Assembly (NCBI GenBank): GCA_013399855.1
Contig: VXAY01001260.1
Location: forward strand, 981 to 64,980
Source of the DNA: Oxyruncus cristatus
Taxonomy: Eukaryota; Chordata; Aves; Passeriformes; Cotingidae
DNA length: 64,000 bases
Reading direction: 5' to 3'
How positions within the stretch are numbered: the stretch's first letter is position 1; each line of letters begins with the position of its first letter. The translations under genes and the position numbers were made by a program. Positions 4,395 to 64,000 of the stretch are shown one piece after another. The notes under the pieces were generated by a model. The model was not told where the DNA came from, did not search any database, and saw only the letters and a program-made list of their open reading frames with translations.

Positions 4395-4570
4395 GAGGGA
4401 AGAAGCATGTCCCGTCTGTCTCTAACACGGTCCCCGGTTTCTCCTCTGGCTGCTCAAGGAATTCCTCTCCCAGCTCAACTCACCAAGTCGAACGCTCCCG
4501 TGCACATCGATGTAGGAGGACACATGTACACCAGCAGCCTGGCTACCTTGACCAAGTACCCAGACTCCAG
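4395..4570 (+). CDS. KCTD15: KCTD15 first coding exon (ATG at 4407)
   Basis: The acceptor ...cccgtcgcag/gag ends at 4394 and the donor cagactccag/gtaagg starts at 4571. The exon carries 12 leader bases (in-frame E-G-R-S), then codons 1-54 and two bases of codon 55. It covers the serine/proline-rich N-terminus and the first beta strand of the BTB fold ([20 protein letters not shown]). Human KCTD15 has EGGN before the same methionine, so the upstream codons look like a remnant of a longer N-terminus used by other isoforms. Confidence 0.93.
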
Positions 4571-31500: not shown

Positions 31501-34500
31501 TTACAGACCCTTCTTCCAGGTGCTCAATCCAAGTGTGGAATAGACATGGAATGAGAGTCAGTTATGTTGGAAACTAACCCAAACACCTTGGCTTAACCCA
31601 GGCAGTTATGACCGGGTCACCTTGCCCTACAGAGCATGTGATGCTCCAGCACAGCCCCGATTTCCACACAGCCACCTCAAGTGTGGCTGTGTCATTCCGG
31701 GAACAGTAGTGGAAGAGCTGTTTCATTTGAAACCAGATTGTCTTCTGACAAAATGAAACGAGAATATAAAATTCATCCTGTTTATTTTAGGGCAAATGAC
31801 AAGTAGCAGGAGTCACTAAGGAGCTGCATTCCGTGCGGTGGGCTAAGAGCTGGCTGTGGGGGAGGTCGAGGTGGTGTGATCCTGGTTTTGTTTGTTTTGT
31901 GGCAGAACTGTTTTGGCCTGGGGGTGCAGCCCATCGAACTCCTGTGATTCAGGATACTGTCAGGCTAGTGCAAAGCCCAGTGAAGGCAGCCAAAGCCTCT
32001 CGTGAATGTAATGGGCCTTGCATCCAGCCTCAGGAGCACTGCTCTCTGCTTCCACAAATGAAGGACTTGTTTTTCTACCACTGTACCATCTCTTCTAGGT
32101 TTTACTGTGGAGTTTTCTTAGCACATTTCTTAGCACAAGGCTTGATTGCCCTTACAAATAGTACCTTATTTTATAGTGACCATGAACCCAGATATTCTAA
32201 AACTAGTTTTGCAGGACCTACTGAAAACAGTGGATGATTTTCCATTGCCTTCAGTAAGCACTGGGTGCTCCTCTTCCCTCTACAGCATTTCATTTTTCCT
32301 TAGCATTGCATGTTTTCCTTTGCTTGAAGAAGAGATCCATGGCACCAGCAGATGCCAAGTGAACGTTTAGTAGGGCACTGCAGACACCTCTGTAGTGAAC
32401 GTAGTTGGGTGGTGGACTGTGCTGATTCAGTGTCCTGCACAAAGATTTCAGGAAATTTGGGACAGGTTGTTTTTTTTTTTAATTTAGGCCACTAACCGCT
32501 GTAGGTTTAAACTGATCCTCTGCTCAGTATCCAGGGAACTTCACTGGTTGACAGACCAAAGCAGTAATGGTTCAGCAGAGAGTGCTGGTTTTGGGGAAGG
32601 TTGAGAATACCTTCCCTCAGGGGACGAGGCTTTGGGGCTGATGCTCTCTTACCTGGTAGTGCAGCCAGTCTCCAGCTCTTTGCCTGGCCTGTTCCCAACG
32701 CTGGTTGTTTGCAGCATGCCTTCTGTACGATTTCTTCTGTAATCTTCCCGTTGTTTTTCATCTTCAAGCTGTGTCCCGTCCCGTGAGCGTGTTTGTTGCC
32801 CTCATTTCTTCCCACTTGCTCTTATCCCTCTTCCTCTCTGCTCTGGTCTTTTTTCCCTCCCTTAGCAGTGTGTGCATTGTCCCAGCCTTAACAGATATCA
32901 AAGAGATGTAAAGCATTGGATGTCCCTTTTGTAAGGCGATAACCTTGCTGCTGTCACTGTGAATATTCATACGTCTCCAGGCTGCAGGCAGCCCTGGGGT
33001 GAGGGAGCACCTCAGCTAACGGTGGTGGGTCTGTGGTGCCAAATTTGAACAGAGCTAACTGCTTTGGTTCAGTAATACCCTGCAGCAGCAGATTTCACAG
33101 GTTAATTCCAAACCACTATGAAGAGTCGCACCTTTTTGTGCTGCGTGTTCACTTGATTCCCCCTCCTCCCTGAGCCCCCAGGCAGCAGCACACCCGTTAT
33201 TTTTCATGGAATTTGAGTGCCCATGTCTTGATTATTCCTTGCCATACCATTCTTCAAAGTCCAAATGATTCCAGTCATTTCACTCTTGTGACTTTTTTGT
33301 TTCATTTCATTGGTGTAGAACTGGCCTTTGTTCCAGGTGTTCCAGATTACTCCACAAAAGGCAGGTAGTATCTTACCCGGGGTGCAGCAGTTGCATCTTT
33401 AAAGAGGTGCAAGAGCCAGGAAAGCAAACAGCAGGTCTTTGCAGGGAGGAGACGGTGCTCTTGTTGCTCCTCTTCCCCTCAGGAGGCTGAAGGAGGTGGT
33501 GGGCCCAGTGTAAGCAGAGTGCTAAAGGGGGCTTCTCCCTCTCTTTCTTCTCTGGCTTGGCCTGGTGGGCACTGCTGCCTCCTCGGGCTGAGGGGTGCTG
33601 ACACCCTTTGCCTCCACGTACTCTCACATATCTCAGCTGAGATGGAAAGATGCGTGAGAAAGGGTGTGCATCTGGTGAGGATGTGCAGCAGATATCTCAA
33701 TCACTGAACTGGGAACTGGATCAAACTGGGAATTTGAATTGCCCGAAGCCGAAGTGAGGTGTTGGACAAATGGCAGGGAAGAACAGCTTCCTTTAAGCTG
33801 TTGGAGTGCACAGCTGAGCTCCCAGCCAGCGGGATGGTCACTCCCTCCATATAATTTACCAGGCTCCAAAGTGTGCTTTAAATACATGAATAGTCATGAA
33901 ATGCAGGGAGCAGCTGAGCTGCTGTAGCTGAATTTCAGCCTCAGCAAAGACAGGTGAGAAGTGAAGCTGAACTGACATCTCCATCTCGTAACGTGTGTGA
34001 GAGGCGACAGCGAAGCCTGCGATCTGTTGTAAGATCAGAAATATCTGAGGCCAAGAGTGAAGATTAGGGCTTGGAACATCTTCTCTTACATCAGTAGGCT
34101 TTGTTTATTGCAACCAGCTATTTTGATTTCTTAATCCAAGACTAAAGCCTTCTGGCATTGAGCTTGTGGGATAATAAATGAAAGGATAATTCAGTGCAAT
34201 GGGAACTTCATGGTCAGCTCAAATAGATTCAACACTAACACCATGTGGTTTTCTGTGTAGGTGTAAGATGAAGACAAAGTATGTGGATACCTGTTGCCTT
34301 TGCGCTCTTGCTGACAGTACATAAGCCTAAGTAGGTCAAACAGGAACAATACTCATTTTTAAAAGAGAACTATAAGCATTTCTAGTTTCTCTCTCTCCCT
34401 CTCTTTTCTTTTTTTTTTTTTCTCCCAGGACTTTAATCTTTTATATGAAGAAGCAAAGTATTACCAGCTGCAGCCAATGATTAAGGAACTTGAGCGATGG

Positions 34501-37500
34501 AAACAAGAGAAAGAACAAAGGAAACATTTCCAGCCTTGTGACTGCTTGGTTGTAAGAGTGACTCCAGATCTGGGGGAGAGAATTGCATTGAGTGGGGAGA
34601 AGGCTTTAATAGAAGAGATCTTCCCAGAGACTGGGGATGTCATGTGCAACTCCGTAAACGCAGGCTGGAACCAGGACCCAACCCACGTTATCAGGTTTCC
34701 CTTGAACGGATACTGCCGGTTGAACTCAGTGCAGGTAATGAATGGCCTTTTGGTGCTGGCTCATCCATTTGCTGGGGTGGTTTTTTTTATCATGTCTTGT
34801 TCAATTATATGCAAATTATTTGCTTCTGCCCAATTACTTTCAGTGCTTATACTGCAAGGAGACATTTTCTGCCTGGTGAGATCACAGTCTTTCAGGTTTT
34901 TCCTAAGTCTAAGCAGAAAAATAGATTTAGATTTTGTGTATGTTAGTGCCATGCTGGTCTCATAATGGTGTTATACTGATAAATGCTAATTTTTTCATCA
35001 ATGTATAGCCTTCAGCAGTTTTTTTTTTTCCTCCAAAGTGCCTGCAGGAAGAAAGAGAGAGTTCCAAAAACTACAAAAAAAAATCTCCACACCATTTTAT
35101 AGAAAATGCAACAATGTGTAAATGCATAATTTATGTCTCACTCATAATTAAATGATGGTGCCTGCGGGATGGACTTAAAAAAATTGATCTCTGCACTTTT
35201 TTTTTTTTCAAAAGGATGTTCTATAAAAATTGCCCAGAGTATTTTAAACAAAATGTATTTCATTTTATGCTCAGAGTTTTGACATTAGGTTTAAAATTAA
35301 ACATATGAAACAAAAGAAGATAACTGGACAGATAGGTGGATGGCAGCAGAAATAAATACGTGGCCTGTGTTTAGGCAGCTGCCTTAGGGACAAGCAGTGC
35401 CATTTCACAGGGATCATCACCACAGCAGCCAGAGCTCTGTGGTGTGGCTGTCCTGGGGCTGTAGAGAGGAACAGGGGTGATGATGCCATTAACTTGTGCC
35501 TTAATTAACAAGGGCAAGACAGAGCTCTTAGTTTGTGTCTGCCTTTGGAACAAGCTGCAAATACTTGTGTTAGGGAAAGGGAAATCAACCTACAGGGGAA
35601 TTTTTCCAAACATGCCATCCCCTGCAGGTGGGCTGTGGCTGCAGGTGTGAACAGGGCTGTGGGAAATGCCTTTGTGGTCTTGATAAACTCCCCTGTGGGC
35701 AAATACTGGCAGAAGAGCCCATGGCCTAGCCTGGCCATAGTGGGAGGGAGGTACAACAGCCAGGGAGGACAAGAACCTAGAGGTCCTGCTTACCTGTGTG
35801 GTTATTACGCATCAGCTGAGGGGCCCTCCACCTCCCAGGCTGCAAGGTGAAAACATTTTCAGGAAACCTGCAGTTAGCTGAATATGTAAAGATGGATGGA
35901 GTCCTTTTAACATCCTGAATATGATGGTGAATCCCCCTCCATGGGGCAGCATTCCCTGGTGCGCCGTGCAGTGACAGAGTGTTGTCTGAAACCATCCTAA
36001 ACCCAGCTGGTTTGGATGATTTTTGGTTCAGACTCCCAAGTGGTGTATTTGGTTGAACGTGAGCAGTCTGTGGTTAATTCTGCACAGTCCTTAGCAGTTT
36101 GTTTGGCAAGGTTTGGAGTGGGCTGCCCCGAAAGCAGCAGGTGGTGAGAGGCAACGGAACAGGGGCGAGTTCGTCCCCGTGCTGGGGGGAGGAGGGAGCA
36201 GCTGCAGTTCAGCTCAGGTAGGTGGAGAGGGAAGAGCATTTGTGTCTGAGCCACGCTGTCCGTGTGATCCAGTTAGATGCAGACAAGGAATCAGAATAAC
36301 TGAAACAACAAAGGGTCCCCGTGAGCCACTCACCAGCACAGCACTGCCAGCGGCCTGGCAAAGCACTGGATGCCCACACGGCTTAGCGTGGCCCTCTTTT
36401 ATCCACAGCAGTGTAACGAGTAGGGTACGTGTGCTTGTAGTAAAAGCTGTACGCTAATTACTGTTTCATTTGAATGTTTTGAATTCAGTCAAAATTCAGT
36501 CAGAATCAAAGAGTTCATGCTGTAAAAAAAAAAAAAAAAATCTCTGTCAAAGAGTCTACAGTTTAAGTAATACTACTAAATTACATCATTTTACTAAATT
36601 GCATCATTTTACTATATAATTAATAGAAAGTGTTTTCAAACACTTTCTGGAAAACTATACATTTCTGAGACCAAAGGCTGATGAAATCAGCAGCTAATTA
36701 TCATTGGCTCTGATGAACTCTGGTCAGTGCACAGGCGCTGCTCTTCCCCTTCCCAGGATTTTTTTTTCAAAACAATATTAAGTCAGAAGTTGGAAACACA
36801 GTGAAGCAAACTACAGACTTAATGGAGATGGGTGGTGGGTGGAAGAGCACAATTGCTTCCAGAGACTCCCAGAGAGCAACACAGGAAGCCTGTCTGCTGT
36901 TTGCTATGTCTCTTCTGTCTCCCTGTGCCCTGCTGAATGTATTTGGTAGCAGAGTTGCAATCTTTATACATTTTTTTTAATATATTTTAAGAATATTTTC
37001 ATTAATTGCTTTGTATCAAGAACTGTGCATATAGAACAAAGAATGTCAACACTGAATAGGTAGTGGTAGGCAAAAAAATACAGTAACTCTTAATTTTACA
37101 CCCATTTGTAATTATATAAAGGTATAGAGGTTTTTTCAACTTCTTGAAACAGATTCTGGTGAGAATCATGAGTTTACCTTAGAGAAAATTCTGTGATGCT
37201 TGTGTATGTTGAACATTGAGTCTTATAATTAAGAATGTGTTTGTTAGTATTCTGCAAAATTTACATGACGTGAAGTAAGGGAAAGGATCATGTTTCCATT
37301 TGGAAAACCTTCCAGCAAAATCAGATACACTTGGAATATTGTGAGACAGCGTATATGAAATCCTAGCACAAATCCTTTGTTTGTTACTGTGTGTCCCCCA
37401 TACCCAGGAGAGTCACAGCTGAGACTCACTTCTGGCATATTCTCTTTGGAGATTTTCAGGAAGGTGGCTCTGATTTGATTCAGAGATGGTTACTCTTTCC

Positions 37501-45388: not shown

Positions 45389-45556
45389 TTATTTAAGCAG
45401 AGCTCGATAGAGCAGGAGAGAATGGCTCATTTCTCGTTCCTGTTCCATGTAGAAGATGAAGTCCCTGAGGTTTACACGTGTTATTTTCTGTCGTGGATAC
45501 TGCCTGGGGGAAGCAGTGCCCAGGCCAGCCTGACTCCCACCAGACACACCGAGACC
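45389..45556 (-). CDS. Terminal coding exon of a TAF4/TAF4B-like TFIID subunit
   Basis: On the minus strand a good acceptor (ttttctttgcag/ggtctc) opens an exon of 55 codons plus TAA in phase 0. Its C-terminal part reads RQKITRVNLRDFIFYMEQER then EMSHSLLLYRALLK. This matches the extreme C-terminus of the TAF4 family, which is part of the conserved TAF4 C-terminal domain that pairs with TAF12 in TFIID. ITRVNLRD and SHSLLLY are as in TAF4; MEQEREM and ALLK are as in TAF4B. The preceding glycine/serine-rich stretch (GLGVSGGSQAGLGTASPRQY) also fits TAF4. There is no stop or frameshift. I found no upstream exon (for example the expected TALAAIGPRKKR block) between 45.6 and 64 kb. Either the last intron is longer than 18 kb, or this is a relic. 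The gene is convergent with KCTD15. Confidence 0.8.
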   Translation of the reverse strand, partial: GLGVSGGSQAGLGTASPRQYPRQKITRVNLRDFIFYMEQEREMSHSLLLYRALLK

Positions 45557-48500
45557 CTGCAAAGAAAACACGGCAAACTTGTAAGTCCTGCAGCAGTGAA
45601 GAGTCCCCTCATACTCAGGTTTACAGCTACTGACTGCTGGATTCTTTTAAACATCTTCAGAGGATTATTGAGCCTCACTCTCAAAATTACATTACATGTG
45701 ATTTTTCTATTATCATTTTTCTTCCTACTGAGTTTTCACGAAATTAACCCGAGTAAAGAGTTCCAGTGCAAACACGTGAGACAACACCTTGTTCACTTCC
45801 AACTCGGGACACATCTGTCCTGTTCTCCTGCTACGGTCGTGTTCCCCGTAGACATATTTGACCAGTTTAAATTCAGGAGCCTTTTGAGGACCAAGCTATT
45901 AGCAGCAGATAAAACCATGTGTGCACCATCCTCCTGCACATCCGAGGACTGGAAACAGGTGAGTGGCATATTGAGCTGTTGCTACTCTGCAGGTGCAGGT
46001 CCCACAAGGGACCCCAGTTCTCTCCTCTGGGTCTGCTGAAGAAAAGGGCTCGGTGTGGGGAGGTTCTCAACTCGAGCAGACAACCAAAAATTCAATAAAA
46101 AGCTCACAAAGACTTGGACATCGTGTGATGACAAAGACAAACATTAGTATACTTGGTTTCTACAGCTATGTGAAATAATTATATATTTTTTTAATCAGTA
46201 TATAGGTAGTGAATTACTGAATACCTCATCCTGGCTTTGTATAAAGAGAGAAAATTCCCAAACTGGGCCCTGAGGATGCTGTGATCTGAACATTTAGAAA
46301 TGGAAAGGACCTAATTACAGCCTCTGCAGTCTCACAGAGTTTAAACTGAAACCTGGTGCACACACACAGTTCTTTTTTCATCTCTAGGAGTCCATTGTTT
46401 TCATTAATTCCAGTTGGTTTGTAGCAAAATAAACTGTTCTAACTTAGAAAAATAAGTTTTAATCTCGAAAAAGATTTAAGCTATTTTTCAGACCTCTACG
46501 ACATCTGGTAAAATTTTCAGCACTTCTAATATCCCCAAATTTACTTCATGCTGCTCAAACCTACCTTTCTTTCCCCAGGAAATACTTATTCTAGGATCTT
46601 GACTCCAGCCATTAAGAATAGAGTGAAGGGTAATTTTACTACTGGAAGGTTGTAGGGGAAGCGTGTGTGGTCTGCTGAGAGCAAGACATGGCACCCTTGT
46701 GTACCACAGTCAGTCAGACTCCTTGCAGAACTGCACCATCCATGTTATTTCTCCTATACCTGCTTATTAAATTACAGCAGTGGGGCAGATCCTGCTCTCC
46801 TGTAACCACAAACACAAAAGGCTTAGTGGAGTGCAGTGAAGGTGGCTCCGCTTGCAGGGAGTAGCGGGAGAAGCCCCCAGTCTTTGAGCACTGTGAGCAT
46901 TTGAGCTGAGGGATTCTGTCCTCCCGTGTGGAGTAGTTTGTGTTAATTAATTGATTGAGCACCGAACCTCCCTGCTCACAGGAAAGCAGCTGCAGGGGCT
47001 GCTCATCCCTGCTGGAGCCAGACACATGCCCAGTGCATAATCCATGTGTTTAGTGGTGCTCCGAGTTCAGCTTTTACACCAAAACACTGCATTCCTGGAA
47101 GAAACAGGATCATTTAAACCCTTAACTCACCGTCTTCCACAAGCTGGAGCAATATGGAACCTTCACCTGCCTCCCAGCTGCCCTCTGACCACACACCCAC
47201 TTTGCCAGGGCTGTGCCCACTCTTTCTAACCCTTCAAGAAACCACTGTGTATGTATTTATTTTAAATCAAGCTGACTCAAAAATATTTTTGCGTCTTCTC
47301 TGTTCCCCACATGGTGCATCTCTCCCCTGCCCACAGTACTACTTATTTCAGGTTCATCCTGACTACAGGACCTGGACAGTGACAAACACACTTGCAAGAA
47401 ATGTGGCCACCTTAATCTCATTAGAAAGCAGTGTCCACAGCATTCTGGACTAGAAGCATCCCACACACACTTACCAAATAGTGTGGTAGGCTAGAGAAAA
47501 GCTAAATAATTTTCCAAATTTTTCTTCATATGAAACTATTTCTTGAGTCAGTTGAGTTACATTTACAGCAAGTAACTGCTCTCTATTTGGACTGAGTAGC
47601 TGGAATTAAGATGTGCCAAGTCACGTTCATTGCTTTGATCACTTGAGATACCGAACTGTTACATAAGAAGAACACAACCCAACGTGCCATCAAGCTGTGC
47701 ATATTGGTAACCAAACCCACGAGCCCATCAGCTACCTGATCATGTTCTGGAGTTGTTTTACAAGATGGAAAAAATCGTAACAATTATTTTAGAAATACAG
47801 AAGCACATCTGTAAGCTGACAGAACACTTATTTATATCTGTCAATATATAATATTGACATATATCATGTCAATCACTAAATTAAAGACCAATTTGTTTAG
47901 TACTGCATGGCACCCAAAATTACTCTGCAGATGCTATATATAAAAAAAAGGAGACTACTAAATGCCACATTTAAATGTATACATGAATTCAAATATAGCT
48001 GAAAATCACGGCCAAGAATAGTGAAATTGAAGTAATTCAGAATTTTCTCAAGAAAAGTCACACATTTTTTATCAGCATGAGAGACTTTTCATTAACCCAA
48101 ACAAACCCTGTGTTGTCTGTATCTATGGCAACTAATCAGAGTTCCACAGATAAAAGCGCTAAGAGAAGAATAAATGGTTGTAAATTGTTTACATCCTCTG
48201 TTTCCTGGCCTGCCACACCCAAGCTGTTCCCAAATCCCACACACACAATTATACATCAATACTAGTTTTTGTATCAGTGAGCTTCTAGTTACAATTTTAG
48301 GAAAACTGAAGACATTGCAGCCATTAAAAACCGCATTTAATTCATATATGAACTCTCTGCCTCTTCATTTTGAGACTGCTCACACACAGGAGTTATGGTG
48401 ACTTCCTGTCCCCTTCCATCCCAGCCTCTCCCACTGCCTCCTCTCCCTTGCTCCTTCAATCCTTCAATTCTGGGACCACAGCAAGTGAGTGGTGACTGCC

Positions 48501-51500
48501 TTGAACTTGGCAGCTGCAAATCCCACAGCAGAGCAAGGAAAGCAGCAGAGAGCAACCAAATCATCTTGTGCTCCACCCGATCCTCACAGGCCTCCAGGGA
48601 GGTGGGTGCAAGGGCCTTTCCCAAGACTGCCCCCCAACTCTTGCTCTCACCAGGACCGAAGAGAAGATCAATCCATGGCAAATCAAATACAGGAGTTTGC
48701 ACCATGGTGCCATGCTCTCCATTAACCTCTAACCCAAGACCTTCCGAAACAGCCGTCTGGCCACTTCAACAGGCTTTAATGCTCTTCAGCACTCCAACAG
48801 CTGATGGGTAGACAGCTCACAATATTTTAAATGAGAGTGTTGGACTGTCAAGCTTAATTCAACTTTTGGAAGCTACTACCTAGCTTGAAATTATGGCTTG
48901 AGAAGAATTAGAGTTATTACTGGTACAGTATAAACATTTTGAAGCAATTCTGAATTTATGTCAGATATGACACAAGATTTGGGCCACCCTTCTCAGCCTG
49001 TTTGCTATTTTCATGATTTTCCTCTGAGAAAACTCATGCTGTTGGCAAAGAGAAATCTAAACAGTTCAGAATAAAACACTGACCAAAGACTTGGTAGATC
49101 ACTAGGTAATATACACCACTGCCACAGAAACACGCTCTCTCAGCGGCAGGGCAGATGTTAAAGCAAATTCTGTGCACAGAGAAGCCAGTGAAGCCTCATT
49201 TCTGACAGCTGTTCCACAGTTCTCTGGTGCTACTTGACCGTTGACCACGGTCAACGTGGCTCCTTTACAGGCTGTTCATCACCTCTTATCTCTCCAGAAA
49301 TACTCGAGTCTGCTGCCCTTCCCCAATCACAAATTCCTCCTGCCTCCCAAGCCTTCTCCCGTCTCAAACTGTCTGCGAATTCCTTCATGGATGGCTCTTC
49401 TCCCATCCTCTCATACGGGTGGGTCCTTCAGGGTGACCCTCCAGGCTCAGGGGCTCCTCAGCCACCCAGGAACGTGTGGCCCCAAGCCAGACGTACCCCA
49501 GAGCTCACAGTGCAGTTCCTCTCTGGTAAGCTCAGCATGTCTCTCTCTCCTGTAGCCAAGCCAACAGTTCACATGGAAGCTGTAGGGACTTAAAATCTCA
49601 AGCTCCTTCCTACCTCTGTCCCCCTTCTGCTGGGCCCCACCACTCCATTTGATCCATATTTCCCAAAAGGTTTAAAGGCTACTGGGAAAGAGGACTCGGA
49701 CAGACACACCTCTTCCAAAATGTTCATGGGCAAACTCCCCCACTGCTCAGAAAGTAGAAGTGTCTTTGAGCATTAAATTACAATAATTGGAACAGCAGGT
49801 GGATGGAAATGAAACCAGGTAACTCCATAAAGTGTGCTGTTCCCTGCTTGAGATAGAAGCGTTTTCATATAAGAAAGCACATGTAATACAAAATCTCCAT
49901 TTATTTTTATAACAACGATTTCTACTGTTGAACAATTAAATCATTTATTTCCCCAAACCTGTGTACCTTCAGCTTTGAATTACAGAGCCGTGGAAATACA
50001 GTACGATATTCTTGTCAGGGAACAGAAAGATAAGGGCAAATAGAAGATTGCATTTAATATTTTATCCCTCCTTCCTTCACCAGAAAACAATTCAGTGCTG
50101 ACATCTCTCCTTTGAACAGAGTCTTGATCTGCAGCTGTTGCTTCTCTGAGAGCCACAGACAAGGCAATAATGATAAAAGATCCGCTGGGTTTCTTCCCAG
50201 GCTACACGGCACATCCTTGTGGCAGACCTGTCTGAGAGTGGGAATCACAGGGCAGCAATTCAAAGCCCGGCTATCTATGGAGTAAAATACATCAGGAATT
50301 CCGCCTCTCCAAGCTCCGTGCACTGCAGAGGAGTGGGAAGATAAGGTATCTATTAGTCTGCTCTGATGAATGAGAGGTCTTGAATCACAAGAAACATTCT
50401 GGAGATATTCTGCAGCAATTATGTTTACTTGCATAAAATGCTATTAGATCTTTGGCTGAGAGGCACATGAAAAACAGGTATAATATTATGTATGATTAGC
50501 TGTCCCACGTAAATTAGGGTTTAATTCAACACCTACTGAGGCTAATAGTAATGATTTCACTGAAACATCCTTAAATTAGGATGCCCCTAAAGTACAGAAA
50601 AGTAATAACTGTTCGTCAGCACCTCAAAGCCTAACAACACTATATGAAATATAATTATATCTATAAAAATACCGTGCATCTTCATATGCACAACATGGTG
50701 GCTTTACAAGTGTCTAGAAAGATTCATCACCAAAAGCTATCATTTAGGCCTTCAGACCAGCAGCATTTACAGGGAGCATTGGATCCCATTCTCCCTTCGG
50801 AAGCTGGTTATTTTCACTCGCCAACATTTTTTACCCTGTACTATTTTAGTGCAACTGTTCCTACAGACTCTGTTTTGGCACTTGTTCACTTGCTACACCC
50901 TTCTGGATGCAAATGCATCTCCTTTCCCCTGGGCACATAAACACACACCTCACCCTGCAGACAAACATCAGAAAAACTGATTTGCACAAGTACTTACAAG
51001 TACTTCAAATACCAACACAATTGCAACATTTCAAAGACAGCATGCAGTAATTTTGAAATTAAGAAATAATAAGGGGAAGGTAAATCATACCAAGTCATGG
51101 ATACAGTGAAAATTTTTTCTTCAGATGTGATCACTTCAGTTTATAATTACCTGATGTTATTTGAACCCAAAGAAATGGGCTGCCATTACAAGCAGAACAC
51201 TTTTTATGTGCCTGCTCTTTGCCTTTATTACACTAAGGCAAGTAACATATGCAAGTATGATAATAAAAAAACCTGCTTTGTAAAGCAGCATCACACCAAA
51301 ATCTTCCAGATGAGGGAACTGGGCATTTATTCCAACCTGATCACTTATTCCTCCCTCTAAGACAGCATTTCTCCCCCAGCTGAATGAGAGCAGGGGCAAA
51401 AAGCAGACTATGAGGCATTTCAGGAAGAAACTAGTTGGGGAGAATCTGCCCCAATGGAAATAAATAATGAAATGAAGTGTAAGGCAGCTATGGGCTATGA

Positions 51501-54500
51501 CATCTGCCTGCTCAAGAGAGATGGGTGTTCAGCTGCCCAGTCCTCAGTAGGGCAGGAACCAGACTGCAACTAATTTCCACTTCTTAATCAGTGTGTCCAT
51601 GCAGTGTCTGAACAAACACTGCATGGATGTGAGCAAGAGAAACTTGAGTTTTTCCTGCACAGAGATACAGCTCTGCATTCTGCAGAGACCTTTAACCTCT
51701 CCAAGATCTTTTGGTATCCCTCACTCCCCACTTGGTATCTGATAAAAACACACTGCTTTGCGTCCTCTGACTTCTTGCAACACACTCACGACTTGCTGGT
51801 GGCGCAAGTTCTGGGTCTTTTAATTTCCTTTGTTCCTGGACCTGCTCTTCAGAGAAGCTATAGGGCCTGCCAACATCTTTATCCACAAACATCTCACACC
51901 TATCGCAATCCACTGCCTTACTTGGACTTAAAAGCAATGACAATTTTACCTGATTAAGAATTCTCAAGTTCGGGCTGCATTCTTCCCGTGGTAATTATAA
52001 GTGGAATATTCTATTTATCCTGTTTCCATCATACATGTGTATTTTCATTTTGCTTGGAATGTTCCTCCTCCCATGCTTTCCAAATGTTTAATCAAGTGCT
52101 GCTCCCTTTGAAATACTAATCCTGCCAAATTTTTTTATTGTTATTTTTCAAGCATTGTGGTGCTTTTCCCTTCTCATCTTTCAGTATTAGCATAGGGGTT
52201 TGTTTCTTGTTTTGTTTTGTGTTGTTCTGTTGAGGGTTTTTTTAAGGACTTGCTTGTCTTACTCCAGCCTAGTCACGCTGTACATCCCTACGTTCTCTCT
52301 CACTAGGAGTCAAGAAATGTCAACCCAACTTTGGGAGCAGCCCTACAGTCCAGCTTGCAGGACTCTCATTTTCCTTGAGACATATTTGATTCCCATCTGA
52401 ATTTTCTGTAATATCTTTGATATTAGTTTGAAACTATCTCAGTTTTACATAGTGGGTGGCCATTTCTTCTCTAACCTGTATGACTGTGACTTTCATTAAA
52501 TCAGAAACTTAAAATAATTAAAATATTCTTGATATCCATCAATCTCTAGACACATATCACTGTAAAATTTAATTGTTTAAATATCTAATTAAAAGATACA
52601 TAATTGCTATCCAGTAAAGGCTGGTTTTTGGTCTTTCTCTTACTGAACACACAATGAGCAGAACAACTGTAGGGGACTAGATTCATTTATAGCTGTTTTT
52701 GATGAAGAAAAAGTCAGCACTAGCAGGTGCTGTATGTCACCTGTTCCAGGGCAGACCCAGGTATCACACAGCTGTTTCACATACTGCCAGTGCTCCTGAG
52801 GGAGGGGGGAGGAGCAGGAGACAGAGAGAGAAGTATCCAAATCTTAAATACAAAATCACTTTCTCAACTTTGAGAGCATGAATTGCCCTCATTCATCTCG
52901 ACTGACTTTCAGTTCTAAAGCCTAATTATGATGTATAACACTCAAACTTTATAAGAATTGTGTCTGAAACTGCTGGCCATCTTGCTCACTCCCCGCAGCT
53001 GTGCAAGTGCCTTTGTGCCCCACTTGCCAAGCAAAGGGCAAAAATACCCCCAGATTTACCAGCCCTGCAGGACTTCATTCCTGAGTGGAATTTGCTCGTG
53101 GATTACTCCCTCTCTATGAACAGTGATATAAACCTTTCCCTGTAATTACCTCTCCTCCTCTGTGGATTGAGGGTAGTGCAGGGCCCTCCCCTGTACACCC
53201 AGCCCATTACACAAACCAAAACAAAGCAGGCAATGTGGTTATCTCTGGATTGAGTGGCAATAAAATTAAGCCCTAAATGCTAATACCTTCAGCTTGCAGG
53301 ATAAACACATTGTCAGAACACAGTCCAGTGTACAGGAAACAAGACATTACCATTTGTAAATAAAAGGTGGAAGACAGCTAACACTCTATTACTGCAAATA
53401 TCATGGAATATAATTAAGGCTGGTGCGTTTCAGACATTACGGAGAGCTGACAGAGTTCAGCAGGGAGAAGAAGGCAAATCATTCAGCCATTCAGTTCTTG
53501 ATTTTGTACCATTTCTGTTTCTTACACCTAAGTCCCACTCTCGACTCTTTTTAAGTTAGAGGTTTTTCTTGTTCAGAAAATACTTTAAAAACTTAGGTTG
53601 GCACACATAACTCTTGGAAGATTGGCTCCAGAAAGGGAACATGGTGGGTTTTCTTCCCTGCAGACATCAGTAAGCTCACAGGAGCGCCCATCCCCTGTGC
53701 TCTCCATTTCCCCTTCTACAGCTCAAAGACAATGCCTTGGTCACCAGTGCTGTTCATCATGCTGGGCTCCTTCTCAAGTCCTTTTCTGGTCCCCTTCCTC
53801 TCTGTCTCCCACACCAGGATCACTTCTCCAGGACTCACAGCAGACACACACCTGGTGACCTGCAGGGCACCTTTCATTGCTCTGCATTACCCTGCACTAA
53901 CCTCAGCGGCTGCTGAACTCACATCCCTGTTCTTAAAAAAACAACAAACCCCAAACTGCTTCGTACTGCCCTCTAACCTCTCAATGTCAATCCAGGTTTT
54001 TCTTTTCTCTCCAAGCCTTGAGTAACAAGGAGATCAGTTTAATTTATAAACACTATCTTTAGTGACAATTTAAACTTTGCTCTGCTCTTTAGAAACCCTC
54101 TTAATCCTCTCTTACTTCACAAATTCCCAAATCCTTACCTTCCTCCAGCCCATTTCACCACAAAGCAAACAACCAATCTTTTAAAGACACTTACATGCAA
54201 CACAGCCAACAACAAAGAATAAACCTTGAATTTCAAGCTAAGCTATTTGAAAAAAAACCCCAAACTTATTTGCTTTTGGTAAAGTTAACCCTTTCACACA
54301 CTCACAATTATCCCAGATCCACCTCACTGTATAAACAGTGGGATTAAATGCACGACAAAAACTTTGCAGAAGATCCTTTAACCAACTATATTCTGCTGTA
54401 ACAAAGTGATTGAGCAATCCATACCAGTATCTAAAAAGAATAAATGTCTTCAGTCTCAGAGATGATCATGGAACAGACAGAGTGATGTAGAAAAACACTT

Positions 54501-57500
54501 TTTTCAGACCTTAAAGCTCTACCCTTGCTTATCTCCAACTTCTCATTTTTACCATCCTAATAAGTTTAGACACCACTCAGACTACCTCAAGAAAAGAAGC
54601 CTTAACAAGTAATATCACAACTGCCACCACCCTTCCTTCATTAGAAACACCTTGATATATATAGTTATTACTTATTGAAAATAAATTAGAAACAAGATAG
54701 TCAAAATCAAATATTCCATTATGAACAATTTTAATTAAAACAGACACTAAAATATATTATAGAAGTAAGTCTAAGACAGACAGAAAATCACCTAATACCA
54801 TGAATCAGCTTATAGACACCGAGGGGGTTTTTTGTCCTGAGAAGAAAGAAAAAAAAAAAAAACCACAAACCAAAACTGACAAGTCTCTCATATCAAATTA
54901 CTCCCAAAACAAACCAAACATGAATATTTTATTAAAAGAGAAGGTTGTAATTACAAAAAGAAAAACCTTTACCGAAGTACTGCCCAAAACCAGAGGCTCA
55001 TGATGGGATACGTCTGGCTAAGTTAAACAAAAGGCAGTGGAGTGCAGTACATGCCCCCTCTTTGGAAGGAGCTGGCACAGCCAATCATCAGCAATGTGAG
55101 AACCCCACCAGATGATGGAAGAGGGCAACCAAGCAGACACACACCGACCTCCACACGCACCCAGAGGAGGATTACTGCCTTAATTAGAGAGGCGAGGGCA
55201 GAAACAACGGGGAATTCCGAGTGTGCTCCATAGCATGGAATGGTGCTACTGGCCTATTTTTACCATTGGCAATGGGAGGGGAGGCACAGCAGCTCTAGTA
55301 GGAGCAAGTGCATTATGATACAACACAACATGAGCATTATAAAATGCGAGATGAATCTCGAGCCCAGAGGCTCTTTAGCACCACTCCAAATCACAACTCT
55401 CTGCCTTCATTTTTCTTCTTTGCTACCATTCCACTTCTCTCAGTACTTCTGACTCGATTAACCCTTTTTTCTCTTTCTTATCTTTTACCTTCCTATTTTC
55501 ACAGCATCACATCAGATTCTTTAAAAAGCATCTGAGCACTAACAGCAGAGATTATAGATCAGCAGTCAGGTTTTTCTGACATACTCTAAGCCAGGGAAAC
55601 TCCAGTTCTTTCCAGTGAGAAATTTATCACTTCATTGGCACCTCAGTAAGACAGCATGCTCTTTTGAAAATCTGGCCCCTGATTAAAAGTTACAAAAATC
55701 ATAAATCAAATTGTAACCTGTTTTCAATGGTCTGAATTCAACTGCTGTGAATTTGTTTTTTTCTTCAAATACTTTCCCCAGAAATTCAAGTCTAACGAGC
55801 CTGAAACAGATTTCCTGCAATACAAGCTTCCTGGGAATTTGGAAAGATGCAGTTGTGTGCCATGCCTGATTTTTGGTATCCCTTCCTGGAATGGCAAGTT
55901 CTGGTGTTCAGTTTAACCAATTCCATCTTTCACGCTAACCTGGCCTGAAATGATGAAATCAATTTTCCAAGAGCTTTTTTGGTCTTTCTGAAAGGCTGTG
56001 CTGGGACCCCTGATCCCTCCCCACAGCCCACACAATGTGCTACCTGAGCGCGGGCACAGCAACATATGGTACAGTAGGTTATAACCATTTTACCATCTGC
56101 TCTCTCTGAACTCTAACCTCGATAATCCCGTATCAGCTTTTCCCCTTAACTGCCACAGTTCTTAGATCTTGGCTTCTACTTACCCTTCTAAAATTAAACT
56201 GCAGCAAAACACATGGCCAGATTATCTGCTGCTCTGCAGAAGCCTCCACTCCTCCCCAGGTGACTTCACTTGGCCAGGGCCTTAAACAAATGATGCCTTC
56301 AGAGCTACAGACCTTCCTTTTTTCAGTGAGTAACCAGAACATTCTTTATTCTGCAAAAATATTGCTCAAGATCCTGTCATATCCTTTACATACCCATTTA
56401 CAAAGTAGTTTGTTTCTATTACACCCTTATTTAGGGCAGCACCTTCAGTGGAACCACAGAGGAGTCCATAACTTTCCAGGAGCAAACTGCAGGTTTTTAG
56501 CAACATTCCCCACAGTGCCTGACTCTGTCAAACCACCTCCCACTATGGGCCTAATTTGGTTTTTCCACTAACAGCCCCATTAGTACAACCCCTGACCATT
56601 TTGCTACTCTGTGTTTCCATAAAACCCAAACAGTGGCATCGCATTGAAAAATAAAATGTTAATTTTATGGTAATAAAGATAAGTTCTATCCAAAGTTCAG
56701 AAAACTGGACAGATTTTGTAAACTGAGAGAGCACTTTTGAAACTTTTATTATTAAATTTGTTGGTTTTGTGTTTTGTTTGAGCTTTGCTTTTTTGTTCTG
56801 GTTTGGGTGTTTTATTCTCTACTTTGTTTTGCTTGCATCTCATGACATCAAGCTCTGTTTCATATAGAGGTTGGAGTTTGAAAGTCTAAGCTTTAATTCT
56901 AGCTAGAACAGCTCATCTAGTGGACTGCCTTCAAATTTGAAGTCTGCCTCATTTACAAAAACTCAAAAAATAGCGACACAGTAATTAAAATCCATGAAAG
57001 ACTGTGGCTTTGGTATAATTTATACATACCCATGCGAAACTACTACATACACACAGACATGGAAAACATAGAGATATTTTTAATAAATACCAATCACAGC
57101 CACAGGAATATACACATTCTCTGTTTTTTATTATAGCACTTGACAATACCAGTTCTTATGGAGGAGGAAATTGAAGAAGGAATCAAATACAGTTATCACC
57201 AATTACTATTTTACAATATCTAGATTCAACTCAAAATATTAAATCATAACAGCTCAGTAAACTTCTCTGACTCATTATCAACTGAACCAGACTGTAATGC
57301 CTACACAATGAAAACTACATTTGTAGAAGAATAGCATTGTAAAATGATTCAAGTTTTAAAATCAGTATAATGCCTTCTCATTAAAAGTATGCATTTCTTC
57401 TCCGTTTTGAAATTCCACATCATGTCTACACACATTGCTTCCTTTTGGATTCCCGTTTAGTATCTGAACAAAAGAGGAATTCGATTTTTCGAATGTGTGA

Positions 57501-57900
57501 AGAAATCAGTTCATGAGACATAATTTTGCTTTTTCACACATGAGCAGTTTAAATATGTTATTCAATGTTATCTTGAGGCACAAACATAAGGCATGTAGGT
57601 TAGAGAAGTCAAAACTACATACCAGACTGCTACCTCAAATGTTTTTCAAAACAGGCAGCTGAAGAATATCATGAAAACTATGGTTTAATTAAAGACTATT
57701 GAATTTAGTTGTAATCTGGGTCCTATTACACAAGTAGTATACAGTAACTATACAAATATACAGAGTCCCTAAATATACATATGAAATTCCATACATGTTT
57801 TCCAGCTACACAAATGATCTATATTCCACAGCTCTACTTGGGGAAAGAGAGTAGTACTTTGGTTTTTTTGGAGTTTATGCTGAAACAGCCTCTTCCTGCC
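45557..57900. other. Long AT-rich non-coding stretch (intron of the TAF4-like gene or intergenic)
   Basis: No exon with both splice context and recognisable protein similarity was found on either strand. Segments 48390-48720 and 49230-49600 are GC-richer and hold open frames without recognisable domains. Short elements include an inverted repeat at 47839-47859, an A-run at 54849-54861, and TG/T-rich patches at 52198-52250 and 56757-56835. If the TAF4-like gene is intact, this is part of its last intron. Confidence 0.45.
47839..47859. repeat. 21-bp palindrome
   Basis: TGTCAATAT / ATA / ATATTGACA has perfect 9-bp arms. A third, partial copy (CATGTCAA) follows at about 47866-47873. Confidence 0.55.
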
Positions 57901-59040
57901 CTATACAATGCAAGAGAAGTAAGACCTTTAATGGTTAATAACTATGGTTCACCCTTCACTTTTCCCCTCCAAATACAGGAGGACATCAGCTCTGCCCTCC
58001 CCCCTCAATTCTCTTTTGCATTCGAAGTATTTCTATCTCTGCATAAAAATGACTTTTTTATTATGCAGTTTCACAGACTATCCTAGGTGGCACCCCAGGA
58101 GCATAATCCTGATTCACAGAACAAAACCATCTAATTACTCCAGCTGCATAATTCATTGGCCCACAAACAGAGGTTGGCCAACCCATGATCTTATCTGGCA
58201 GACTCCAGGAGCATGTGTGGGAATCCCTACGGGAGGAACACCGGGCAGGGCTGGAGGTCAAGCGCTCACTGGGACGACTTGGGCTGGCCAAGGGGAAGGA
58301 GGACAAAGGAGACACCGTGCAGCCTGGAACTTGGGCACTGCAGGCAGTTCCTCCTTCCTTTGGTCGCTCAGTCAGTCTGCAGGTGAATCATTTAAGGAGA
58401 GGTTTGTCCCCGAGCCGTGGATCCTCCACGGCCACGCTGCGATGAGCCACACGTGTAACTCAACTGCAGTAGTAAAGAGCAGGAGGAAACACTTGCATTG
58501 GCACTACTGTAACTATATACTACAGATCTCCTCCAACCTCACTGAGAGGCAAGAGTGTCATTTGAAAATCACACATTGCTCAGATGACAAGAGCAAAACA
58601 CACTTATCGGGTATTCCTTACTTTGCATCTGTTTTTCCTACCCCGCTGATGAAAAGCTCTGTGCGTTCACAGTATTCTGGCAAACCTCCCAACAGAAACC
58701 TCTCAGACACCGTCTATAGAGAATTTCTGCAGGTCCTTTTATTATTGCTTGTTTGTTTTAATTTACCGGAGTTGCTTTCAAGTTCCATCCCCCCTTTGAA
58801 AAACATCACCCCGTTCGTTGGCATGATCACATACCTGCGATTCTCTAAATGACAGATAGAGATGAGCCCTGGACCACTCTTGGTGCCAGTTAGCAAAACA
58901 CCTGACAGTCTCCCATGAATTCCCAATGTAAAGAATGGATATTTAAAAGAACTATGAATTGGGTTCTAACGTGGAACATTTTACCACATAATAAAGACTA
59001 AGCCAGAAAACATTTCAATTCTCAGTAATGTTTTCATCCT
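57901..59040. other. Non-coding stretch with an unexplained 302-codon open frame
   Basis: A plus-strand frame from ATG 57944 to 58852 is open for 302 codons, unusually long for this window. The product has no recognisable domain or signal peptide and shifts composition from lysine/serine-rich to glycine-rich and back. The central part (58200-58440) is locally GC-rich, which favours long chance frames. I treat it as probably not a gene. Confidence 0.3.
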
Positions 59041-59075
59041 GCATTATAACAAACATGAGTGGCAGAGAGACTTGT

Positions 59076-59200
59076 CAGCCCAGTGGTTAGGGCACTATTC
59101 ATCTTCCATCTCCCAGATCTGGGCTGCAACTACTCGGCAATAGACTCACTTTCTCACTAGAAATGTCATCTCGGAGCTGAGAAACCTTCTTGACAAATAT
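59076..59200 (+). mobile_element. Old tRNA-derived SINE-like fragment
   Basis: CAGCCCAGTGGTTAGGGCAC resembles the A-box head (GGCCTAGTGGTTAGGGCAC) of sauropsid and MIR-type tRNA-derived SINEs. ATCTCCCAGATCTGGGCTG after it resembles their decayed B-box region. The body is too diverged to delimit, and the ends are approximate. Confidence 0.4.
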
Positions 59201-60482
59201 GTTTTTGAAACAGATGTATTTTTGCTAAACATTTTATCTTTGACAAAAATGTATTTTGACAGAGAAAGTTTCATAGCAAATTTTTTTTCACCAGCTCTAA
59301 TAACAAGTTAGACTTCTAGGGCCTAAGTGGGGAAAGCTGCTCAGACTATGCCTTGCTGATTGAGGTAAGGCCTCCCTGGCAGGAGCAATGACCATCGCTG
59401 TAACTGCCCTGATGGACATACAGGTCAATTCTCCATTGCTCTGTCCTGATTTTCCAGTGTTTACCCTCAAACAATGAGCCACAGGTCCCCTCTCGCCGTG
59501 GCATTCAGAGCAAGGCTATGAATGGGACCCAAACCTGCCTCACCCTCCTCAGCTGGTCTTCACAGCTTTGTCTGAATGACTCCTTCGCGTACTTAAGTAG
59601 TAATTAACAACAGAAATGTTTAGGATAAACAGTAAAGACAGAGCATTTGAAAAAAGAGTTAACAGATGTCCTTAACATTGCTGCTGGCCTAATAACGTTG
59701 CTGCAGTAATTCATTTGATGTGGAGTTTATTTAGCTGCTGCAAACATACAGGGTTATAATAATCATAAGCAGGTTGCATTAAGCACAATGGGTGTGTAAG
59801 ATAGTGTTAAAAATAATTCCAGAAACTGTATGCCTTAAAGACATTAGATGTGCAGTGTCTTCTACAAGCTGACTGTGAAAAGCTAGCCAGAAAGCATCTT
59901 TCAGACTTTAAAAAAAATTTACTAAAAAGAAATATAAAACCCAAGACTTCTTTTACAGATAATTTTGCCTATAGTTTGGGATGGCAAACATTGAATTCAA
60001 ACATCAAATCCTGGCATACTCCAGTAAGCTATCGGCACAGCAGTGCTGCCTTTTTTCCTTTGAAAAATGAAAGAATTAAATTCAAAACAAACAACTTCAA
60101 TTTAACACCAAACTACAGGATAACCAATCTTAAAAATGTCAAATTGTAATGGATCTTAATACCCATATAAAACACAAAAATAGTGGCATTGTTCCTTGGT
60201 AATGCATAGCAACCTTACAGAATTTCAGTGAAGGAGAAAGAAGGGAAAAACACCTTATTACTTCTAACTCCTGCGAGCCATTTTGGTCTCCAAAGGTTTT
60301 AGACTGCCTGAGGCCATGTGTCTGCAGTGTTTCGGGAAATGACTTGCCTTCGCACGAACACTGCTATGTTCTGCAGCACTGCTGCCCCCCAGCATCCCCG
60401 CTCAATTTCTAGTTAACTCTTCCTTACCTGCATCAGCCTTTTCCCCCTTTTTTTTGCAGCAAGATTTCAGAAAGGTTCTGCT

Positions 60483-60545
60483 TAAAAAAAAAAAAACAAC
60501 AACAAAAAAAAACCAAACCGCCACAAAAACGCGAACCAAAAACCC
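60483..60545. repeat. A-rich low-complexity tract
   Basis: Runs of A interrupted by C (AAAAACAACAACAAAAA type) across about 60 bases. Confidence 0.7.
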
Positions 60546-62245
60546 CTCTGCTTTTTCTGCCAAGTTTGCTCAGAAACAAGCACGACCAGAATTTACCTCT
60601 ATAAATCTTTGAGAGAAAAAGGAAATCAATTTGAAACTAAAATATTTGGAAACGCAACTAGTTTAGCTAACAATCATCGTGGAGCTTTGAAGTTCGATAC
60701 TGCTCAAATGTTTGTCTGTTTTGCCTCAGTTAACAAACAGTTAGAAAACAAAAAACCATCAACACCCGCATAGAAAACAACGGCACTACTAAAATCCTTC
60801 ACTTATCACTGTATTTAGATTTTTAATTACACTCCCAGCACCACATTAGAGGCTGCGATTAAGTCCCTGGGTAAGGCCTCAAAACTATTCACCAATTTGT
60901 CTTAGCGGCAGTGTATTAAAAGTAGCAGGAAATAAACCATCTAACACAGAGAAAGATTGAATCCTTCGTATAACGTACTGAATGCACTTGGCAGAGCCGT
61001 TTTGTGTTTCCCTCTATTTTCTGTAAGGATACACAGCTACATACTGCAAGCTATACTGCTTGATAGCTTCCTTAAAAATCTCCAGAAAATTCGTAGCCAA
61101 GGTCACTGCTGACTGACTCCAAATATGACAGTGGATGAGGCTACTCAAATATTCTGTTCATCTCAGAGGTTGAGTAAGCAGCTCTAACTAAGAGGAAAAT
61201 CGATATAATACTTCACAGTGAGGAAGAAAATGGAAAATAGTTTAGCAGTTAAGTGGTTAATGCAATTCCTAAGTGTTCAGCAATCATTGCAATTTAGTGC
61301 CATTTCGATTATTACACAATAAACAGACCATGTTGTCTGGAAGCAAATTTTTATGAGTATAGCTGAAGGGGTTGCAACTTATTTAGCTGCTGAAACTCTA
61401 AGGGAAAGAACATTTCTGAATGCTAACACTACAGATCAGAAATATACAGGTACACTGGAAAGGTTATTTTTAGGTCACTACTATGGTAACTAACCACACT
61501 GACCTTTAAAATTAGTATGCAGTTCAAGAAAAATGAAGTTCAGTAAAATGTTCTTTAAACAGGATAATTTTAATAAACAATATTGCCCATCCTTACAGCA
61601 GAATTCTGTCACTTTTTACAGCTGTGAATTCTACTTTTATATAATAATATAATGTACAAGAATATCGTGATGCAGAACTGATTAGGAAAGAAATGTAAAC
61701 AGCCAGAAAACTGATTAAACTATCATTAATTTATGTTTAAAGAATTAAAAAAATAATAACAGCTATATTTATTTCTGCAGAATAAAACTGCTAGCTGGAG
61801 AAGGGCAGTTTTTCATATTATGTAAAGTCCAGGAAATATTTAGAACAGCCACAGTCAAAATCATCTTACTTTGTCTCATTTTGAAATGACAGAATTTTAA
61901 GTGGATTTTAAAAGCAAACCCAGTTCCGCAATTTATAAATTCAAAGACAAGAAGGTGAGAATTATGTTCAGGGCAGATGAGAGAAACAGCACGAGATGAA
62001 GAGTCTATGGTTGATGGCAGCAGGGACTCAGTAAAGGAAACAGCATTTCGAACAAAAGTACTCTCTGAATCCAAAATACTGATGATTAACTGGACAAAAC
62101 TTCAATTACAATCATGGTTTTAAGAAATAATATATTATGAGCCAGTCCATTAGATAAGAAATGGAAATCAAATTTTTGGCTGGTTATAAATGTGTTCAAC
62201 AAAACCACCAGCACAGAGAACACACTAACAAGTAGTAGATGCTGT

Positions 62246-62267
62246 TAAGTTGGCAAGAGCCAACTTA
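62246..62267. repeat. Perfect 9-bp hairpin with 4-base loop
   Basis: TAAGTTGGC (62246-62254), loop AAGA, GCCAACTTA (62259-62267). A compact stable hairpin without a U-tract. Function unknown. Confidence 0.6.
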
Positions 62268-62395
62268 CCCCATCAACTCAGTGATCAAATAGACAACACA
62301 GTCGTTTAATTTTATTTTGTCTCAGCCACATTTGAGACAGCTTATAATGTTATGTCAAATGGCTGACAGTAAACCAGATACATAAATAGAAATTA

Positions 62396-62438
62396 TTATA
62401 TATACACACACATATATGTCTGTATGTGCATATATACA
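62396..62438. repeat. Degenerate AT/CA microsatellite
   Basis: Imperfect TATATA, CACACA and TATG runs, low complexity. Confidence 0.7.
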
Positions 62439-64000
62439 GGGAGAGACATACACAAGCATTTTAGTCTAGGCCACACTGTAGACCTTTTTCAATATGTGGC
62501 TCTCCCAGAAGAATATATAAAAATTACCTTTAAAAAGGGAAAATGATACCTGCATTTTTTCAAGACTCAATATGCTTGTGAGTAACATTGCCTTGAAGTG
62601 AGTTTTAAATGCCTGGATCACAACTGCTGTGAAAAAGGGAAAAAAAAAAATCTCTACACTAGTGGAATTCTGGGCCACCCGTGTTCCTGCGTTCCTGGAA
62701 TTCCATGTTACACCTACACCTCTTTGTTGGTGCCAGGTAGGAGAGGTGGGTGCTGGTCAATTAGTAACTACATCCACCTTCAAGGCCCATCTGGAAATGA
62801 GCACAATTACAATATTCACTGTAAAAAGACACAGCAAGGGACAGGCACAATTACCAGTCTAACAATACCAGCAACAAAAAACAACCAAAAAAAGAGCAAA
62901 GGATGGATGGCAAGTACTAACACCCTCCTTTCCCTCCCAGGGATCTCATGCAGCCGTGGGAGCGAGTTGGTCACTTCCCAGGGCCACCCAGGGAGCACCA
63001 ACTCTCCAGTGGATCCAAACCTGTGCTGAGGACCGTGGACACAGCAGGAGACCTGATCCTACACACACACAGAGAGTCAATTTTCCAGGTTAGAAATCCC
63101 ACTGAGAAAGCCCAGAGCTCTACACCTCATCTGTCCATGCTTCCAACTGGGCACCCAGGGCACGCTGATTTCTGTCCACTGGTGCTCAAGCAGCTACACC
63201 AGCAGCCATACTCTTTTTCCCCGCCCTGCCAATTAATATTTACAACAGCATTTCTGTTAAAAAAACCCCCAACTTAGGTGTATTAAAAAACCCCAACATG
63301 GCAACAGGGTCTAGTTTCCGAAATGTGAAGCAAAATCTTAAACTTGGCTTCTCTGAAAATTGAAGGTTCGGCCTCCACCCCTACCTTTCCATGGAGTAAT
63401 TTTGCTGGTAGTAAATAACCAAAATTTTCATTTTTTGAGAGCCAAGCAAGACTCTGAGCGTTCTTCTTGACATCTTTTCAGCCAAGACTACTTATAGCTG
63501 TTGGCCACTGAAGAGCTTATCTAAGGAATGGGAGGTTGTAAGTGTGCCAGCCAGATGAGAGTCCTAAGCAGGCAGGGACACAACAGGTAGTATGCCTGGA
63601 CAGAAAAAAATTCCCCAATATTATTTTCTCATGAGGAAAGACATTCATTTGCTGTACAATCTCCAAATGGATGTTAAAATAAATGCAGGTTCTGACAGGT
63701 TATTTTTCATTTTGCTTGACTGGTGTTTACACAAACAAATCCAAATTTCAGTTAAAACAAACAAACAAAAATGCTCATGTAAGTACTAATTTGGAAAGTA
63801 AGGTTTCACCAAGATTACATTTTCCAGCCTGACATAAGAGAAACGTGAAGCAGAAATAATTACTGTCTGAGACTAGGAAAAACATTGGTGATTAACTACA
63901 CAGATTTAGCTTTAAAATACAGATTTCTCTGCAATACCATGGCCACATACAAGTATCCAGCTTTAAAAAGAAACTGCTAATTCAAAGGAGACCAGGGAAG

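Follow-up and report, generated by a model that had tools for sequence, protein, structure and literature searches.

A third TAF4 gene adjoining KCTD15 in Oxyruncus cristatus, most likely an ohnolog of TAF4 and TAF4B

We identified a 55-codon exon next to KCTD15 in the genome of Oxyruncus cristatus which we take, with high confidence, to be the 3'-terminal exon of a third TAF4 gene. The readable parts of this gene are intact, and it is most likely an ohnolog from the early vertebrate duplications that has been kept in birds, turtles, salamander and ray-finned fish; we infer for it a role as an alternative TAF4. The textbook picture, which is based on mammals, has two TAF4 genes only. The window, that is, the whole stretch of 64,000 nucleotides analysed here, corresponds to positions 981-64980 of contig C360, and the genome searched comprises 1,037,108,819 bases in 2279 contigs. 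Features within the window are collected in Table 1.

The exon translates into 55 residues followed by a TAA stop, GLGVSGGSQAGLGTASPRQYPRQKITRVNLRDFIFYMEQEREMSHSLLLYRALLK, and closes with the conserved C-terminal end RQYPRQKITRVNLRDFIFYMEQEREMSHSLLLYRALLK. It matches the Pfam TAF4 profile PF05236 over positions 223-262 of 262 (E = 6.2e-10) with 39.7 bits, above the curated cut-off of 33 bits, and it also matches human TAF4 chains in the PDB (E = 3.5e-14 and 3.7e-14). Given these two kinds of match, the likeness to TAF4 is not due to chance, and the C-terminus is of the TAF4 family as the first-pass annotation had recognised. The acceptor, TTTTCTTTGCAG/GGTCTC, is good and joins the exon in phase 0 to ...GGE. 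Translation and splice border agree with the earlier description of a minus-strand exon with an intact acceptor and no disruption. All 55 residues recur unchanged at the ends of the "TFIID subunit 4-like" proteins of Neopelma, Pseudopipra and Empidonax. The suboscine passerines Neopelma (Pipridae) and Empidonax (Tyrannidae) are among the best protein matches. Searches of the window with human TAF4 probes, motif patterns and three full-length bird proteins found no further TAF4 exons.

Table 1. Features of the window, with positions counted from its first nucleotide
Feature	Position	Strand	Basis
KCTD15 coding exon	4389..4574 (borders of match)	+	human KCTD15 probe
KCTD15 coding exon	26379..26525	+	human KCTD15 probe
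KCTD15 coding exon	34420..34752 (borders of match)	+	human KCTD15 probe
KCTD15 last coding exon, ~5 kb from TAF4-type stop codon	40229..40393	+	human KCTD15 probe
AATAAA polyadenylation signal, 136 nt past stop codon	45250..45255	-	sequence
Terminal coding exon, third TAF4 gene, 55 codons + TAA	45389..45556	-	translation, PF05236, PDB, protein matches, splice border
Splice acceptor region (polypyrimidine tract + AG) of terminal exon	45557..45572	-	sequence
Last intron, portion within window (~43 kb in all)	45557..64000	-	penultimate exon beyond window, ~88717-88842

The simplest alternative is that this exon is just the bird's own TAF4 or TAF4B, displaced or mis-recognised, as its C-terminal end has motifs in common with both and some bird database entries bear the plain name "subunit 4". 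However, both genes were found elsewhere in the same genome. All 15 genome matches to PF05236 fall on three loci (five on contig C289, five on C1880, three on C1519 and two on C360), as do all 25 matches of a TAF4B protein search on these same contigs, and each of the three TAF4-type loci has its own TAFH exons. In the core, the C289 gene shares 95.5% identity with human TAF4 and the C1880 gene 79.0% with human TAF4B, which identifies them as the TAF4 and TAF4B of Oxyruncus, whereas the third gene shares 72.6% with this TAF4 and 65.9% with this TAF4B. The three loci and these core identities together lead to the conclusion that the gene in the window is neither TAF4 nor TAF4B of Oxyruncus, in line with what had been proposed from the exon alone. 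Identity with the bird's own TAF4 or TAF4B is refuted by the presence of three loci in one genome, and the unrooted tree described below, which parts all three groups, leaves that reading with next to no probability.

The third gene is nonetheless built much like its siblings. TAF4 (TFIID subunit 4, TAFII135) resembles it in its TAFH and TAF4 domains, its exon borders and its conserved C-terminal end, but falls in a separate tree group and has a different end motif (LIFCLENERE..LLLYKAFLK against FIFYMEQERE..LLLYRALLK in the third gene). TAF4B (TAFII105) has the layout and similar exon borders in common with the third gene but likewise falls in a separate tree group, and it reads KKRP where the third gene and TAF4 of Oxyruncus read KKRK. 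The C-terminus had at first been described as a mixture of TAF4 and TAF4B; it need not be one, as it belongs to a group of its own.

The rest of the gene bears on a second alternative, namely that the exon is a relic, whether it stands alone or belongs to a retrocopy or a decaying pseudogene. This could be argued from the single exon within the window, from the division of the gene between two contigs and from the unread state of most of its first exon. Yet mapping the Empidonax protein P0024 by tblastn onto retrieved stretches of C360 and C1519 gave 14 more exons with open frames. The penultimate exon lies at C360:89697-89822 (window coordinate ~88717-88842), ~43 kb upstream of the terminal exon and close to the end of the contig at 91,940. 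Contig C1519 carries 11 minus-strand exons between 23109 and 80582, and two additional ones at ~93808-94020 (upper border uncertain) and 97550-97696. The upstream TAF4 exons that the first-pass annotation had proposed to look for beyond 64 kb were thus found, giving a total of 15 coding exons in the correct order on one strand, 13 on C1519 and 2 on C360, and the two contigs meet inside one intron of the third TAF4 gene.

No exon segment holds a stop in this mapping. For 13 of the 15 exons the borders were inspected by eye, comprising 12 internal donors (11 GT, 1 GC) and 13 acceptors, all AG; among the 14 additional exons, good splice sites were seen in all 12 of those checked. The GC donor (CAG/GCAAGT) belongs to the internal exon C1519:78917-79144 (locus L021). 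Segment borders are concordant among the three loci, as far as tblastn segments show. The genome match to PF05236 over the penultimate exon, C360:89715-89903, does hold two stops, but both lie beyond the exon borders and, since none lies within them, we take the match to run on into the intron. A 7.2-kb N gap (C1519:97702-104918) starts within the first exon and leaves residues 1-280 unread; the 26 bases displayed ahead of it have a G+C content of 85%. A processed pseudogene or retrocopy was rejected, as the gene is neither intronless nor frame-disrupted in its readable exons (residues 1-280 apart). With a core 98.5% identical to that of Empidonax and long orthologous proteins in many birds, the relic reading is hardly credible.

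The domain content of the gene is that of the TAF4 family. Its TAFH (PF07531) exons were placed by tblastn with P0024 at C1519:77912-78037 and 76213-76308, and a genome profile search found parts of its PF05236 domain spread over C1519 and C360. For the orthologue P0023, sequence matches were obtained to solved structures of the human TAFH domain (2p6v, E = 3.6e-32) and of the TAF4 histone-fold chain (1h3o, E = 8.6e-19). The overall layout is that of TAF4, with a low-complexity N-terminus (seen in relatives) followed by TAFH, a histone-fold region and, at the C-terminus, the conserved end.

We searched for relatives of this gene with matches scored on the terminal exon, which gave 297 proteins. 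Of these, 120 were listed, four of them with no species label; the labelled rows comprise birds and turtles, the salamander Ambystoma, sturgeon/paddlefish and teleosts, and none is from a mammal, crocodile, lizard or frog. The relatives include long or full-length proteins in birds, turtles, axolotl and ray-finned fish, many of them named "TFIID subunit 4-like", and PF07531 is present in most of the orthologues listed. (With the 55-residue piece as query, a plain search gave 19 short entries only, full-length relatives being excluded by length.) The core of the Oxyruncus gene is 91.0% identical to that of Pelodiscus, 84.6% to Polyodon, 83.7% to Danio and 81.0% to Ambystoma. The gene is not peculiar to this lineage, since birds, turtles, a salamander and ray-finned fish all have it, many of their copies being annotated automatically.

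For comparison, 120 of the 1120 proteins in a broad TAF4/TAF4B collection were listed, and those shown with names come from mammals, almost all under the name TAF4B; human TAF4 was therefore taken from the PDB alignments and the bird TAF4 and TAF4B from the Oxyruncus genome itself. From the proteins listed, 17 of 120 of the third type and 4 of 120 from the TAF4/TAF4B search were chosen; one of the 17, the emu protein P0042, was then dropped, as no histone-fold start motif was found in it. The resulting tree is unrooted, with 24 rows and 344 columns; just two rows represent TAF4, and none comes from an invertebrate, lamprey or shark. It contains a third group of 17 rows (100/100), a TAF4B group of 5 rows (100/99) and a TAF4 group of 2 rows (100/99), each recovered in 100% of 200 bootstrap trees. 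The third group of this unrooted tree holds the gene of the window together with birds, turtles, axolotl and five ray-finned fish, so that fish and tetrapods stand together in a tree without outgroup rows, and the third gene lies outside both the TAF4 group of two rows and the TAF4B group. The exon thus belongs neither to the only TAF4 or TAF4B of the species, which has three loci, nor to either of those groups in the tree. The inner branch among the three groups is 0.005 long and, with the tree unrooted, their splitting order is not fixed.

Names in the databases vary. The RefSeq/GenBank bird and turtle proteins called "transcription initiation factor TFIID subunit 4-like" are automatically predicted orthologues of the third gene, and that name is silent on its status as a separate old paralogue. 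All five fish rows of the third group (Polyodon, Danio aesculapii, Megalops, Myripristis and Anguilla) are called "TAF4 factor", "subunit 4", "subunit 4-like" or "hypothetical", some of them as if they were TAF4. These five fish proteins are P0085, P0088, P0101, P0113 and P0128; some bear the plain name "subunit 4", so that a confusion of paralogues may lie concealed among proteins named as fish TAF4.

Since the tree is unrooted, has few TAF4 rows and lacks outgroups, the age of the third gene is inferred mainly from its neighbours. KCTD15 (plus strand, matches from ~4389 to 40393) and the third TAF4 gene (minus strand) stand tail-to-tail with their ends ~5 kb apart, which together with the three loci and the separate tree group (100/100) bears out the first-pass proposal of a third TAF4 paralogue adjoining KCTD15. 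TAF4B (C1880, plus strand, match end 384201) similarly stands tail-to-tail with a KCTD1-type gene (413446-447090, minus strand). On the other side, an LSM14 gene at C1519:112149 (plus strand) stands head-to-head with the third gene (minus strand), and TAF4 (C289, plus strand) has an LSM14 gene in the same relation at 1653406-1653525 (minus strand). No KCTD15-like match was found on C289, the contig of TAF4, among the 20 matches listed, and no LSM14 match on C1880, that of TAF4B, among the 3 listed. The third gene therefore shares one flank with each sibling in like orientation, the pattern left by duplicated ancestral blocks. Because the KCTD flank is shared with TAF4B and the LSM14 flank with TAF4, in matching orientation, we read the third gene as a probable 2R ohnolog. 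These flanks fit the human maps, with KCTD15-LSM14A on chromosome 19, TAF4B-KCTD1 on chromosome 18 and TAF4-LSM14B on chromosome 20; chromosome 19 would presumably be where mammals lost the third TAF4 copy. A third LSM14-domain match, at C297:133323-133454 (profile 1-43), lies outside both TAF4 neighbourhoods and may represent either a first exon out of place or a further LSM14 gene.

These neighbours also bear on whether the third gene could be a later duplicate of TAF4, for instance one specific to sauropsids. Birds and turtles are the most similar entries among the 120 of 297 relatives listed and the tree is unrooted, both of which would suit such an origin. However, proteins of paddlefish, Danio, tarpon, squirrelfish and eel lie in the third group at 100/100, and a later local copy of TAF4 leaves unexplained why one flank family is common with TAF4 and the other with TAF4B. 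We therefore consider a later duplication very unlikely and an early vertebrate ohnolog the best explanation.

As to function, TAF4/TAF4B is a core subunit of TFIID present in two copies per complex (PMC11423858). By homology, the third protein would replace TAF4 or TAF4B within TFIID, its histone fold may pair with TAF12 inside the complex and its TAFH domain may contact activators. When compared with its own TAF4, the third gene is identical at 59/85 positions in TAFH, 44/58 in the first histone-fold exon, 21/44 in the second, 35/42 in the DDEWY..AAK stretch, and 1/11 in the linker and 28/38 in the conserved end of the last exon. With identity as low as 21/44 in the second histone-fold exon, the proposed pairing with TAF12 rests on homology. 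Further, 17 residues are fixed throughout the 17 third-group rows but occur in none of the 7 TAF4/TAF4B rows; of these, 8 are in the 85-residue TAFH stretch and 4 in the 44-residue second histone-fold exon. A clustering of these residues in TAFH was considered and rejected, as their density in the second histone-fold exon is about equal.

It is possible, if rather doubtful, that the third gene is a true ohnolog yet redundant with TAF4 and without a distinct role. The stretches that remain close to its own TAF4 (DDEWY..AAK and the conserved end of the last exon) would favour this, as would the mammals, in which no third TAF4 gene is known. Against redundancy, the gene has been retained across birds, turtles and fish, and its TAFH domain and second histone-fold exon have drifted away from those of TAF4, although this drift is no proof of a separate role. 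TAF4B, a gonad-enriched variant of the ubiquitous TAF4 (PMC7010400), may serve by analogy as a precedent for a division of labour among TAF4 copies. More speculatively, this TAF4 might be the centre of a third type of TFIID in most jawed vertebrates other than mammals, one that has activators, promoters or cell types of its own; mammals would then be exceptional in having lost it. With a third old paralogue in birds, turtles and fish, the composition of TFIID in these animals is not deducible from mammals, and some results on fish "TAF4" may concern a gene that mammals do not have.

Our literature search, which did not cover the most relevant review, found no published description of a third vertebrate TAF4 and no match for the word "TAF4x". 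The 2019 review by Antonova et al. may list an extra TAF4 paralogue under that name. In passages of two papers, the vertebrate TAF4 members named are TAF4 (TAF4A) and TAF4B only (PMC7010400, PMC11423858). The third TAF4 gene is already present in databases under automatic names and is neither lineage-specific nor unannotated. Among its entries, P0089, P0096 and P0127 (485, 1025 and 457 residues) are on contigs of 2088, 3817 and 1408 bases; these look like spliced transcripts, fish-like by their sequence, and are the sole hint of third-gene expression. The short entries P0017-P0020, which end in ..FCLEQDRSTARSLLLYKALLK or similar, might be true fish TAF4.
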